From the NCBI RefSeq assembly GCF_002999235.1, contig NZ_CP027236.1, forward strand, positions 186,001-250,000: a stretch of DNA of 64,000 nucleotides, in the 5' to 3' direction. The DNA comes from Actinomyces sp. oral taxon 897 (GTDB taxonomy: Bacteria > Actinomycetota > Actinomycetes > Actinomycetales > Actinomycetaceae). Positions 30,886-44,726 of the stretch are shown piece after piece (the stretch's first letter is position 1; each line of letters starts with the position of its first letter). The notes under the pieces are model-generated. The model was not told the origin of the DNA, searched no databases, and worked only from the letters and a program-made list of their open reading frames with translations. A program made the translations under genes and the position numbers.

Positions 30886-30961
<76 letters not shown>

Positions 30962-31004
30962 GACGTCGGTACGAGGACCGACGGCGCCCCCTTGTGAGGA
31001 GCCG

Positions 31005-31077
<73 letters not shown>

Positions 31078-41640: not shown

Positions 41641-41670
41641 TTGACACCGTATAGGTGGTACCTCTACACT
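41641..41670 (+). promoter_or_regulatory. Promoter of Y RNA A
   Basis: Consensus -35 TTGACA (41641-41646), 18-bp spacer, -10 TACACT (41665-41670). Start expected near 41677, exactly where the RNA stem begins. Confidence 0.88.
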
Positions 41671-41676
41671 CGCCTC

Positions 41677-41816
41677 GTCCGAGCGGGCCGGAAGTGACCG
41701 GTTACCGTCGAAAGGATCAGCAGGTCCGGGGTTCGAGTCCCCGTCGGTGCTCGCGCCGGTAGCTCAGTAGGCAGAGCGGCTGGCATTCCGGTCACGCCCA
41801 CCATGACCGCCCGGAC
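41677..41816 (+). ncRNA. Y RNA A: Rsr-associated RNA with a complete circularly permuted tRNA-like domain
   Basis: About 140 nt. The outer stem GTCCGAGCGG (41677-41686) pairs with CCGCCCGGAC (41807-41816, one mismatch). A 7 x 11-nt internal loop (GCCGGAA opposite GCCCACCATGA) leads to an 8-bp inner stem (41694-41701 with 41788-41795) and TTACCG. The enclosed domain reads: anticodon-stem strand TCAGC (41717), variable AGGTC, T-arm CGGGG TTCGAGT CCCCG (41727-41743), a 7-bp acceptor stem TCGGTGC/GCGCCGG closed by only TC, linker TA, D-arm GCTC AGTAGGCA GAGC (41762-41777), G, and GCTGG closing the anticodon stem. This is the topology of bacterial YrlA RNAs, where the Y stem replaces the anticodon arm. 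The two-nt acceptor loop means the last pair must open. Expected to bind Rsr. Confidence 0.88.
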
Positions 41817-41856
41817 CTCACCCCGTCCTCTGAGCCCCTCCTGGCGGGCTGCGTCC

Positions 41857-41886
41857 TTGATCTACGGGCAGGTGCTGGCCTATAAT
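41857..41886 (+). promoter_or_regulatory. Promoter of Y RNA B
   Basis: -35 TTGATC (41857-41862), 18-bp spacer, perfect -10 TATAAT (41881-41886). Start expected near 41893. Confidence 0.88.
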
Positions 41887-41891
41887 GGTCC

Positions 41892-42026
41892 CTGCCCGGG
41901 CGGGCCGAACGAGGGATGGTTATCGTCTCTTAAACGAAACCCAGCTTTCGGGGTTCAAGTCCCTGACACCAGGCTCGTGGCAGAGCGGCTGGTCTCCACC
42001 CCTCAATCTCCACGACCGTCCGGGCC
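41892..42026 (+). ncRNA. Y RNA B: T-arm and D-arm without an acceptor stem
   Basis: About 135 nt. The outer stem GCCCGGGCGG (41894-41903) pairs with CCGTCCGGGC (42016-42025). The internal loop is GCCGAAC opposite an 11-nt strand ending ACGA, followed by a 9-bp inner stem (41911-41919 with 41996-42004, one mismatch) and TTATCG. The tRNA-like part has anticodon-stem strands CCAGC (41941) and GCTGG (41988), a T-arm CGGGG TTCAAGT CCCTG (41949-41965) and a D-arm GCTC GTGGCA GAGC (41973-41986). Only seven nucleotides (ACACCAG) join T-arm and D-arm, so there is no acceptor stem. It shares layout and loop motifs with RNA A but little sequence. Confidence 0.85.
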
Positions 42027-42049
42027 CCACGCCCAGGACACGCCGGGCT

Positions 42050-42079
42050 TTGACGCCCGCCAGGCGGAGGGGATACACT
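42050..42079 (+). promoter_or_regulatory. Promoter of Y RNA C
   Basis: -35 TTGACG (42050-42055), 18-bp spacer, -10 TACACT (42074-42079). Start expected near 42085-42087. Confidence 0.87.
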
Positions 42080-42084
42080 TGGGC

Positions 42085-42323
42085 GGTGTCCGGGCGGGCC
42101 GGAGATGGCCAGTTATCGCTGCAGGTTGAATCAGTTCAGGTCAGGGGTTCGAGTCCCCTGCGGCGTTACTGCTGTACTCACCGGTACCGCCGTGACCGGT
42201 AGTTCAGGCGCAGACGCTTACGTCTTATTCGTCGTTAGCTTAACGGTAGAGCGTTCTGATTCAGTAGGTGGCCTCGGCCAGCTACCTTTAACGGTCATCA
42301 CCTTACACGACCGCCCGGACACC
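42085..42323 (+). ncRNA. Y RNA C: enlarged tRNA-like domain with acceptor-stem extension
   Basis: About 239 nt. A perfect 13-bp outer stem joins 42085-42097 to 42311-42323. The internal loop is GCCGGA opposite 11 nt ending ACGA; the inner stem GATGGCC/GGTCATC is at 42104-42110 and 42293-42299; TTATCG follows. The module has a 7-bp anticodon-type stem GAATCAG/CTGATTC (42128, 42256), a T-arm AGGGG TTCGAGT CCCCT (42143-42159), acceptor strands GCGGCG (42160) and CGTCGT (42230), linker TA and a D-arm GCTT AACGGTA GAGC (42238-42252). Between the acceptor strands lie 64 extra nt with hairpins ACCGGT/ACCGGT and AGACG-CTTA-CGTCT. A further hairpin (42263-42286) precedes the inner stem. Confidence 0.84.
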
Positions 42324-42445
42324 ACCTTCTATCCCCCGGGCCGCACGTCCTGAGCCGATGCTGCCACCACCCACACGCTCCTCGGCTCCTCCCTGCCTCC
42401 AGACGTGCAGGAGCCTGTCCGTCAGGAAGGCTGTCGAGGGGAGGC

Positions 42446-42475
42446 TTGCCCTGCAGGTGTGTAGGGGTCTACACT
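42446..42475 (+). promoter_or_regulatory. Promoter of Y RNA D, nearest promoter to rsr
   Basis: -35 TTGCCC (42446-42451, weaker), 18-bp spacer, -10 TACACT (42470-42475). Start expected near 42482. No other clear promoter lies between here and rsr, so it may also drive rsr. The 42324-42445 stretch before it has no feature I recognise. Confidence 0.75.
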
Positions 42476-42481
42476 CCTTGC

Positions 42482-42623
42482 TGTCGGCACAGACCGGCAC
42501 CTGCGCGGGATGGCGGCGGGCCGGAGGCTCCCCGGTTATCGACTGGCACAGCTGGGTTCGATTCCCGGCCCTCTTCGGAGGAACTCGGGGACCACACCCA
42601 CGCCCGCCACCACCCGCGCAGGT
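42482..42623 (+). ncRNA. Y RNA D: reduced form with a T-arm and UUCG hairpin, no D-arm
   Basis: About 142 nt including a 17-nt leader. The outer stem is the longest: an 11-bp part (42499-42509 with 42613-42623), one bulged A, then ten positions with one C.A mismatch (42511-42520 with 42603-42612). CCGGA opposite ACACCCACG forms the internal loop; inner stem GG-TCCCCG/CGGGGACC with a bulged C; then TTATCG. The loop has a T-arm CTGGG TTCGATT CCCGG (42552-42568) and then CCTC-TTCG-GAGG (42570-42581), a stable UUCG hairpin where the acceptor and D-arm would be. It sits 120 bp before rsr and could belong to the rsr mRNA leader. Confidence 0.82.
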
Positions 42624-42625
42624 TC

Positions 42626-42642
42626 GCACGGCCGGGCCGTGC
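42626..42642 (+). terminator. Possible terminator or attenuator between Y RNA D and rsr
   Basis: Perfect 7-bp stem GCACGGC/GCCGTGC with a 3-nt loop directly after the 3' end of Y RNA D. No U-run. It may end Y RNA D while allowing some read-through into rsr. Confidence 0.5.
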
Positions 42643-42742
42643 GGTGGGCCAGCTGGCTGCCGGGTGGCGCGCCTGCCAGTCTGCCGCGGCAGGTACGCAG
42701 CCCGGCCGTCGCCCAGGAACAAGTCGTCCGGAAGGGGAGGAC

Positions 42743-44341
42743 GTGGACGTACTGAGGAAGATCAACACCCGGATTACGCCGCAGCACCAGAAGGCCACCA
42801 CCAAGCAGGTGGCCAACTCCGCCGGCGGCTACGTCTTCGCCCTCGACGACGTCGCGCGCCTGCGACGCTTCCTCATCCTGGGCGTGGACGGCGGCACCTA
42901 CTACACCAGCGCCCACGCCCTGGCCGTTGACAACGTCAAGGTCCTGGAGCGCCTGGCCTCCGAGGACCCGCGCACCCTGGTCGACACGATCGTGCAGGTC
43001 TCGACCAGCGGCGCGGCGCCGAGGCAGAACCCGGCCCTGTTCGCCCTGGCCTACGCCACCTCCGTGCCGCAGTCCCGCGACGCCGCCCTGGGCGCGCTGC
43101 CCCAGGTCGCCCGCACCGGCTCGCACCTGTTCACCTTCGCCCGCTACGTCGAGCAGTTCCGCGGCTGGGGGCGCGGTCTGCGTCGTGCCGTCGGCTCCTG
43201 GTACACCGGCCGCGACGCCGACAGCCTCGCCTACCAGGCGGTCAAGTACCGTCAGCGCGAGGGCTGGAGCCACCGCGACCTGCTGCGCCTGGCGCACCCG
43301 CGCACCGACGACGCCAGCCTGCGGGCCACCTTCGACTGGATCACCCACGCCGGCCTCGGGGAGACGACCCCCGCCCTCATTGAGGGCTTTATCAAGGCGC
43401 AGCAGGCCACCGACGCCGCCGCCTGGGCGCGGATCGTCCGCGACTACTGCCTGACCTGGGAGATGCTGCCCGCCGCCGCGCTGACCCAGCCCGTGGTGTG
43501 GGAGGCCCTGCTCGACGTCGGCGTGCCCATGACCGCCCTCATGCGCCAGCTGCCGCGCCTGACCCGCCTGGGGCTGCTGCCCGCGATCGGCGGGCGCACC
43601 CAGGAGGTCTGCGCGCAGCTGACCGACGCCAGGCGCCTGCGGGCCGCCCGCGTGCACCCGATCAGCGTGCTGGTCGCCCAGCGCACCTACGCCTCAGGTA
43701 CCTCCTACCGCGGTACCACGGAGTGGACCCCCACGACCAAGGTCACCGACGCCCTGGACGCGGCCTTCTACGCGGCCTTCGGCGCGGTGGAGCCCTCAGG
43801 CAGGCGCACCATGCTGGCCCTGGACGTCTCCGGGTCCATGGACTGGTCGGTCTCGGGCATGGGGATCACCGCCCGGGAGGCCTCAGCGGCCCTGGCCCTG
43901 GTGCAGCTGGCCACCGAGCCGGAGGCGGTGGCCTACGGCTTCTCCGACGCCGGTACGGCCAGCAGCTGGCGCAATCCCGCCCTGACCCCGCTGGACATCT
44001 CCCCGCGACGCCGTCTCGACGACGCCCTGGCCGTGGTGGACGCCATCCCCATGGGCGGCACGGACTGCGCGCTGCCCATGCTGTACGCCATCAAGCAGAA
44101 GCTGGAGGTGGAGACCTTCGTGGTCTACACCGACAACGAGACCTGGGCTGGCAAGGTGCACCCCTACCAGGCGCTGCGGCGCTACCGGGAGCGCAGCGGC
44201 ATTGACGCGCGGCTCATTGTGGTCGGCATGACCTCCACGGGCTTCTCCATCGCCGACCCGGACGACCCGGGCATGCTCGACGTCGTCGGCTTCGACGCCG
44301 CGGTACCGAACCTCATCTCGGAGTTCGCCCGTGGCCTCTGA
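42743..44341 (+). CDS. rsr: Rsr, Ro60 orthologue (TROVE plus vWA domains)
   Basis: Ring-shaped RNA-binding protein that holds Y RNAs and misfolded or structured RNAs; 532 residues, close to human Ro60 (538). The GTG at 42743 begins VDVLRKINTR, the usual TROVE start, just behind GGGGAGG; the open frame upstream is noncoding Y RNA sequence. Residues 1-350 are the helical-repeat TROVE domain (VANSAGGYVFALDDVARLRRFLILG, with YVEQFRGWGRGLRRAVGSWY). Residues about 355-532 form the vWA domain with an intact MIDAS: LALDVSGSM and the Thr in GGTDCALPM. In bacteria Rsr plus Y RNA gates exonucleases such as PNPase. An 18-bp terminator follows. Confidence 0.97.
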   Translation: MDVLRKINTRITPQHQKATTKQVANSAGGYVFALDDVARLRRFLILGVDGGTYYTSAHALAVDNVKVLERLASEDPRTLVDTIVQVSTSGAAPRQNPALFALAYATSVPQSRDAALGALPQVARTGSHLFTFARYVEQFRGWGRGLRRAVGSWYTGRDADSLAYQAVKYRQREGWSHRDLLRLAHPRTDDASLRATFDWITHAGLGETTPALIEGFIKAQQATDAAAWARIVRDYCLTWEMLPAAALTQPVVWEALLDVGVPMTALMRQLPRLTRLGLLPAIGGRTQEVCAQLTDARRLRAARVHPISVLVAQRTYASGTSYRGTTEWTPTTKVTDALDAAFYAAFGAVEPSGRRTMLALDVSGSMDWSVSGMGITAREASAALALVQLATEPEAVAYGFSDAGTASSWRNPALTPLDISPRRRLDDALAVVDAIPMGGTDCALPMLYAIKQKLEVETFVVYTDNETWAGKVHPYQALRRYRERSGIDARLIVVGMTSTGFSIADPDDPGMLDVVGFDAAVPNLISEFARGL

Positions 44342-44361
44342 CCCGCTGAGTGGTGTACGTA

Positions 44362-44404
44362 CCAGGGGGGTGGCCGTCCTGGCAGGGGACGGCCACCCCC
44401 CTGG
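44362..44404 (+). terminator. Terminator of rsr, perfect 18-bp stem
   Basis: 44362-44379 is perfectly complementary to 44387-44404 around a 7-nt loop; the stem includes GGGGGGTGGCC. It starts 20 bases after the rsr stop, so the next gene is separately transcribed. Confidence 0.93.
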
Positions 44405-44510: not shown

Positions 44511-44726
44511 GTGGGCAGCTCTGACCCCCTGGCGGCACGCGCCGCCGAGCTGCATACCAGGGCCCTCGAGGCCGACGCCCTCGCCGCCCGGTACCGGAAT
44601 GAGCGTGACGCGCTCATCTGGCGGCTGCGGGCCGACGAGCCGGGGCGCTGGTCCTACACGGCCCTCGCCCGGGCCCTGGGCTGCAGCCGCGAGCTCATTG
44701 CCCAGATCGTGCGCCGGGCCCAGTAG
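44511..44726 (+). CDS. Small helix-turn-helix protein
   Basis: 71 residues from the GTG at 44511; the same frame is open from 44331, but the upstream part covers the rsr terminator, so the downstream start is preferred. A helical stretch [20 protein letters not shown] is followed by a helix-turn-helix, [20 protein letters not shown], resembling sigma region 4 or a phage-type regulator. Similar small proteins occur in many actinobacteria without known function. It sits between rsr and sigR but neither link is shown. No strong ribosome-binding site is visible. Confidence 0.65.

Follow-up and report, generated by a model that had tools for sequence, protein, structure and literature searches.

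A 64,000-nt window of the genome of Actinomyces sp. oral taxon 897 (NZ_CP027236.1, positions 186,001-250,000; coordinates below are window positions) carries rsr, the gene of a Ro60 orthologue, and the region directly before it appears to encode four Y RNAs. We consider it probable (about 0.82) that these RNAs bind the Rsr ring of the next gene, most likely as interchangeable adaptors for one ring. The original prediction had proposed four noncoding RNAs at this place, and a model built from the Y RNAs of other families (R1) recovers exactly these four. The genes and promoters are as follows.

41641..41670, + strand: Y1 promoter, TTGACA-18-TACACT (strict promoter scan)
41677..41816, + strand: Y1, class I Y RNA with a full permuted-tRNA domain; bulged C at 41688 (R1, 96.6 bits)
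41857..41886, + strand: Y2 promoter, TTGATC-18-TATAAT (strict promoter scan)
41894..42025, + strand: Y2, class I Y RNA with a shortened D-arm; bulged C at 41905 (R1, 43.4 bits, and alignment)
42050..42079, + strand: Y3 promoter, TTGACG-18-TACACT (strict promoter scan)
42085..42323, + strand: Y3, enlarged class I Y RNA; bulged C at 42099 (R1, 53.8 bits over 42088-42320)
42446..42475, + strand: promoter-like site of Y4, probably also of rsr, TTGCCC-18-TACACT (looser pattern; below the strict scan)
42500..42622, + strand: Y4, class II Y RNA with a T-arm and one hairpin, without a D-arm; bulged C at 42521 (R1, 48.2 bits over 42510-42613)
42743..44341, + strand: rsr, Ro60 orthologue of 532 aa (TROVE and vWA_Ro60 above Pfam cut-offs)

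Evidence for four Y RNAs beside rsr

The comparison covered 80 named rsr loci (the best 80 of 128 confirmed relatives) and a genus survey of 49 Actinomyces genomes, own genome included; Actinomyces are the closest named relatives of the window Rsr. Sorting into classes was limited to the named loci and required a pairing score of at least 12, and 17 candidates fell into no class. Fifty of 59 class I candidates, all from families outside the Actinomycetaceae, entered the alignment and model R1. Left out were three from the Actinomycetaceae, two distant ones (L076, L078) and L005:3789, L007:3700, L029:3813 and L030:3707.

Searched against the window, R1 gave exactly four matches at E < 0.01 (E 3.5e-17 to 8.7e-7; the next is at 0.2). 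Across 85 rsr loci it gave 194 matches at E up to 0.1, every one on the rsr strand. Within the genus, an rsr match was found in 10 of 49 genomes, own included, and full-length Y RNA matches in 7 of these 10 versus 0 of the 39 without. This genome-wide search used stricter filters (more than 40 genomes) and missed Y3 itself, so weak RNAs elsewhere may be missed. Two of the remaining genomes (G005 and G033) have rsr together with a single class II RNA that scores below the genome-wide cut-off; a third (G034) retains only an rsr remnant with an internal stop (G034:C1:705888-706262). The rsr of A. ruminis (L061) is split into two matches, by decay or assembly error. In two metagenome-assembled genomes of Deltaproteobacteria/Myxococcota, Y RNA matches lie downstream of rsr (L064:6547-6671, L080:6688-6798), and L080 carries TGTAGTGCACTACA 1618 nt after the rsr start.

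A common foot unites the four window RNAs and all Y RNA classes. In the class I alignment (n=50) it begins with a GC outer stem; above this come a single unpaired C, two further pairs, an internal loop and an inner stem, after which TTAYC follows. The human Y RNA sequence GUUAUC resembles the GTTAYC run after the inner stem in the window. Single-sequence folding is weak for Y1, Y2 and Y4, and comparative evidence was therefore used as the main proof; Y3 folds with a z-score of -5.36. The check proposed with the original prediction was covariation of the stems in relatives, and it came out in favour of the structure. RNAalifold on the 50 class I RNAs yielded 33 pairs, 25 of them with two-sided changes, and under a fixed structure 25 of 35 pairs have such changes. 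With this fixed structure, 95.4% of the cells are paired (79.4% in shuffles, 39-48% in slid versions), and the covariation score is 0.463 (0.169 and 0.07-0.13, respectively); the shuffle control is inflated by relatedness and the slid control is not, and the slid comparison favours a structure that was partly derived from the same rows. For class II, RNAalifold found two-sided changes in 8 of 16 pairs, with the foot paired differently from class I.

All class I RNAs (50/50) share the C of GGGCCG, and so do all four window RNAs. The place of this bulged C agrees with the reported Ro60-binding site, in line with the earlier suggestion of a Ro-binding stem like that of animal Y RNAs: the bulged C and H187 of Ro60 are given as binding determinants in animals (PMC4030889), and the bulged C as a Ro60-binding site also in PMC4726728. 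In 89 loci, four of them repeats of named ones, the 5' core GGCCGR...GTTAYY gave 162 matches in the 290 kb upstream of rsr and 6 in the 437 kb downstream. The opposite strand has 9, three of them in L088, a locus whose record runs in the reverse orientation. Paired inner and outer stems around 161 cores have a median score of 14.8 versus 10.0 in shuffled downstream sequence. This median equals the 99th percentile of the shuffles (14.8), so that pairing by itself leaves roughly half of the individual candidates without significance.

The neighbouring protein is the Ro60 orthologue that had been predicted beside Y RNAs. It contains TROVE and vWA_Ro60 domains, and its best match among solved structures is Deinococcus Rsr (2nvo, E 3.7e-123). 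It retains equivalents of K170, R174 and H187 (His185 being the H187 equivalent) and the metal ion-dependent adhesion site (MIDAS) motifs DVSGS, GGTDC and YTDNE. We take K170 and R174 to be Y RNA-binding residues of Ro60, and which MIDAS residues count is likewise our assumption. The equivalog NF041674 of NCBIfam (RNA-bind_Rsr) matches over nearly the full length with 533.3 bits, and its cut-off of 900 is not reached.

Permuted-tRNA heads, copy number and promoters

The heads were compared with the tRNAs of the own genome (32 kinds from 30 loci), permuted by joining the 3' half to the 5' half. Permuted order beat unpermuted order in 387 of 416 comparisons (13 Y RNAs x 32 tRNAs), and scored higher for Y1 in 32/32, Y2 in 31/32, Y3 in 25/32 and Y4, which is without a D-arm, in 20/32. 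Y1, whose domain comprises a T-arm, an acceptor-like hairpin, a D-arm and an anticodon-stem equivalent, aligns gap-free (locally) to permuted tRNA-Thr(GGT) with a score of 87.5 and to permuted tRNA-Lys(CTT) with 86.5, versus 50.5 for the best unpermuted tRNA. As for the elbow residues, 49 of the 50 class I RNAs retain the T-loop TTCRANT and 47 a D-arm with GG. Hence the predicted tRNA-like domains are borne out in Y1-Y3 as permuted tRNAs, and Y4 keeps the T-arm only. Salmonella YrlA is circularly permuted relative to tRNA (PMC11472068), so the permuted heads are a confirmation rather than a discovery. We do not claim a recent origin of Y1 from a tRNA of its own genome: the permutation is a known architecture, and the shared tRNA consensus could explain the gap-free alignment.

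Partial R1 matches of about 32 bits, spanning only the T-arm-to-D-arm part, occur in many genomes. The two in the own genome lie across tandem tRNA genes, one being a tRNA-Lys pair of the window (30889-31077, - strand). The two genes of this pair have equal score and anticodon, and their T-arm/acceptor/D-arm junction matches the upper part of the Y RNA model. Such a junction is a possible natural source of permuted tRNA domains.

Y3 spans 239 nt including the outer stem, with extra material that separates the T-arm from the D-arm and holds two D-arm-like pieces at 42200 and 42236 (pattern search). Its match (233 nt) is the longest among 184 upstream matches, the next being 168 nt. In Y4, ARAGORN calls a tRNA-Asp at 42507-42576 (+ strand), and Rfam does not. 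tRNA genes in the array were rejected: there is no RF00005 match at the Rfam cut-off, and ARAGORN alone calls Y4. Annotation pipelines may nevertheless enter Y RNAs like Y4 as tRNA genes.

The copy number is ordinary, contrary to the original prediction. Among 63 actinobacterial loci with at least 1200 bases upstream of rsr (window included; near-copies such as L011, L014 and L089 kept; eight matches with E 0.014 to 0.093 omitted), one Y RNA was found in 6, two in 29, three in 10 and four in 18, and these counts led us to reject four copies as a distinguishing feature. The abstract of Chen 2014 reportedly puts at more than 250 the species that have likely Y RNAs close to Ro60, with at least one RNA in each carrying a tRNA-like domain; several Y RNAs per species are therefore probably known already. 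Y1-Y3 conform to this rule, and two loci with only a class II RNA near rsr, L085 (G033) and L003 (G005, 951 nt upstream), speak against it.

Three head classes were distinguished: a permuted tRNA (I), a T-arm only (II) and no tRNA part (III, often nearest rsr); besides these there are stem-only RNAs of 70-78 nt. By the script labels, L009 and L024 show the order I, I, II, III without exception. Four loci (L010, L017, L019, L022) fit it except that the first RNA misses the T-arm pattern, and L008 and L027 read the same by eye, with the third RNA labelled T plus D by the script. The window order is I, I, I, II, and no class III match was found in the window. The claim of four structurally different RNAs thus stands for Y4, which is class II, and not among Y1-Y3, which are of one architecture class. 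The unusual points of the window array are its three tRNA-like copies and the length of Y3. No other Actinomyces locus has more than one class I RNA in the 0.95-4 kb of upstream sequence covered. To this single RNA Y1, Y2 and Y3 are closest (79%, 77% and 73% identity, versus 56-68% among themselves), with Y1 and Y2 each most like that of L084. This fits a multiplication of that gene in this lineage and is as would be expected from it, with sequences too short for proof. The stem-only matches (L015:696-773, L032:3899-3968, L033:3893-3968, L036:3732-3807, L047:3747-3822) seem to comprise little more than the Ro-binding foot and are perhaps pure gates.

In relatives, a promoter-like site ends 2-25 nt upstream of 45 of 174 Y RNAs, versus 4 of 9380 control positions inside rsr. 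For the Y RNA nearest rsr, a promoter-like site lies within 25 nt in 5 of 66 loci, a limit that misses longer leaders such as that of Y4 (about 34 nt from the -10 box to the matched stretch). The scarcity of promoters there suggests that the nearest RNA may be cut from the rsr leader. Y4 may likewise sit inside the 5' leader of rsr: between Y4 and rsr the strict scan, which also missed the promoter of Y4, found no promoter.

Possible roles of the array and alternative explanations

In bacteria, a Y RNA tethers and gates Rsr (PMC7790460, PMC4726728, PMC8394870, PMC3997798), and in Deinococcus it tethers Rsr to PNPase and gates it (PMC7790460, PMC4726728, PMC3997798). By analogy with Deinococcus and Salmonella, the foot would dock on the outside of the Rsr ring near the conserved histidine and gate the cavity, and the head would be the effector part, able to tether the ring to another machine such as PNPase. 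The heads of Y1-Y3 would correspond to tRNAs circularly permuted, opened in the anticodon loop and sealed at the acceptor ends. They would still offer the tRNA elbow to tRNA-binding enzymes and should neither be charged nor read codons. The head of Y4 would offer a T-arm only. Following the Deinococcus example, the array would then provide interchangeable adaptors and gates for one Rsr ring.

Several points weigh against this reading. We know of no partner of actinobacterial Y RNA heads, and the several copies could be redundant rather than diverse adaptors. The R1 scores of Y2 and Y4 are modest. With the Rfam YrlA model (RF02553), Y1 reaches 35.1 bits against a gathering cut-off of 69 and Y2-Y4 are not listed; the rsr loci of 9 relatives gave no YrlA match at the Rfam cut-off either. 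RtcB, the partner of other systems, is absent, with no PF01139 match in the own genome.

The strongest competitor is near-redundancy, in which extra Y RNAs would cover the Rsr ring and set the amount of free Rsr, as dose and gate, and would have no separate partners. The foot is the part common to all classes, stem-only RNAs of about 70-78 nt in relatives (L015, L032, L033, L036, L047) can hardly tether anything, and Y1 and Y2 are both closest to the class I RNA of L084, a likeness expected from local duplication. Separate roles, on the other hand, are favoured by a head order that recurs in similar form across families and by elbow residues retained in 47-49 of 50 class I RNAs. We consider redundancy unlikely overall, though it deserves serious attention. 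A cis-acting function is distinctly less probable. The elements would then belong to the rsr leader instead of being free RNAs, for example as tRNA-like decoys affecting transcription or processing of the rsr message. This agrees with the few promoter-like sites within 25 nt of the nearest RNA (5/66 loci), in a test that is lenient to the leader view. However, Y1-Y3 have their own promoters and start up to 1066 nt before rsr, and in other bacteria the Y RNAs are bound to Rsr (PMC4726728, PMC8394870). Decayed or chance tRNA-like sequences could account for the tRNA-Asp call on Y4 and for matches of the upper model part to tandem tRNA junctions, but the full-length held-out matches (E down to 3.5e-17), the covariation and the restriction to the rsr strand make this explanation scarcely credible. 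Overall, we favour free Y RNAs acting as adaptors for one Rsr ring.

A candidate switch and its relation to known systems

Two further elements flank Y4 and rsr and may take part in their control.

42460..42473, no strand: palindrome TGTAGGGGTCTACA over the -10 box, candidate operator (the only TGTAGNNNNCTACA in the own genome)
44511..44726, + strand: gene of a conserved helix-turn-helix (HTH) protein of about 70 aa after rsr, candidate regulator (frame open from GTG 44331, overlapping the rsr end)

The palindrome pattern TGTAG-N4-CTACA overlaps the -10 box of one Y RNA promoter. Exact copies number 24 in 104 kb upstream of rsr versus 1 in 606 kb elsewhere in the same loci. Among the surveyed Actinomyces, the 9 genomes that contain TGTAGGGGTCTACA all have rsr; the other 40 lack the sequence. 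A hairpin of the type GTCGGC..., seen by eye, separates the palindromic promoter from the class II Y RNA in the window (42476-42499, imperfect), L084, L085, L087 and L089.

The HTH gene follows rsr in 33 of 85 loci, some of which end too soon to show it, and in all 33 the match begins 1570-1786 nt from the rsr start. Its product is named hypothetical protein wherever a source annotates it. In 27 of 31 loci there is a GTG in frame, 8-11 nt ahead of the point where the rsr stop codon ends; the script picked the start nearest that point, and within rsr this GTG is also part of a conserved Arg-Gly codon pair. Source annotations of Actinomyces give the gene a later start. Because of these three points, translational coupling with rsr is likely only where the conserved domain starts right there (L030, L047, L062).

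With up to one mismatch allowed, 27 of 76 loci have both palindrome and HTH gene, 0 the palindrome only, 5 the gene only and 44 neither (Fisher p 7e-16 by raw count, with rows that are not independent). On the Rsr tree, from which four rows (L011, L014, L043, L061) were excluded by hand, 3-4 of 5 independent pairs agree and 0 oppose, which is not significant (sign test, p 0.125-0.25). The co-occurrence suggests a dedicated regulator, with too few independent events for significance. An AlphaFold2 model of the protein shows a long helix and an HTH (mean predicted local distance difference test score, pLDDT, 91). A fold search with it gave no match at E < 0.001. The best match was a mitochondrial ribosomal protein (E 0.21), and the others among the 50 listed were mostly HTH transcription factors and sigma factors, plus mitoribosomal chains. 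The Pfam family MRP-L20 matches below threshold (22.7 of 30.4 bits), as it does in precomputed results for many homologues. These weak mitoribosomal matches make RNA binding by the HTH protein also possible and slightly lowered our odds for a regulator.

We hypothesize that the HTH protein binds the palindrome. This operator at the Y4 promoter would possibly control expression of Y4, rsr and the small HTH protein. Tentatively, and with somewhat less than even confidence, we propose from sequence comparison a self-regulated actinobacterial Ro60 cassette. It would combine up to four Y RNA adaptors in recurrent order, rsr, and an HTH protein that acts through the promoter palindrome, and a stress signal would switch it on. 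In this Actinomyces the tRNA-like adaptor would have been tripled, with one copy of about 239 nt.

Among known systems, Deinococcus radiodurans (RYPER) has the Rsr that is the best structural match of the window Rsr, and its Y RNA gene presumably also adjoins rsr. Several small RNAs are said to bind Deinococcus Rsr (Chen 2000). The PNPase tether is known there. Vertebrate Y RNAs differ in that no common head was seen with the window RNAs. YrlA (RF02553; Salmonella YrlA, 6CU1) resembles the window RNAs in its basal stem and tRNA-like domain with D, T and acceptor parts (PMC8394870). The order of T-arm, acceptor-like hairpin and D-arm is the same in Y1-Y3, and the gene likewise lies beside rsr, but the window RNAs fall below the Rfam cut-off. 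YrlA is stated to measure 90-150 nt (PMC8394870), and Y3 is far longer. For the Salmonella operon, yrlB and yrlA are named (PMC7790460), against four genes in the window, and the rsr-yrlBA-rtcBA RNA repair operon differs also in its RtcB, which the own genome lacks. A literature search, which did not cover the main bacterial Y RNA papers, turned up no account of the arrays, the palindrome or the HTH gene. The array itself follows known Y RNA architecture, and the switch is the most novel part.

Two strains of Arachnia propionica (L025, L028), which we take to be the present name of Propionibacterium propionicum, have four Y RNA matches each. A role of Ro60 orthologues from human commensals in triggering lupus autoimmunity is under discussion, and patients' antibodies precipitated Ro60 ribonucleoproteins of P. 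propionicum that contained bacterial Y RNAs (PMC11277228). With four Y RNAs per strain, knowing all the RNAs of such particles is useful. Comparable arrays, with distinct heads on one foot, make the adaptor idea testable: does each head have a different partner? The candidate operator and the HTH gene would help to find out when Actinobacteria express the system.

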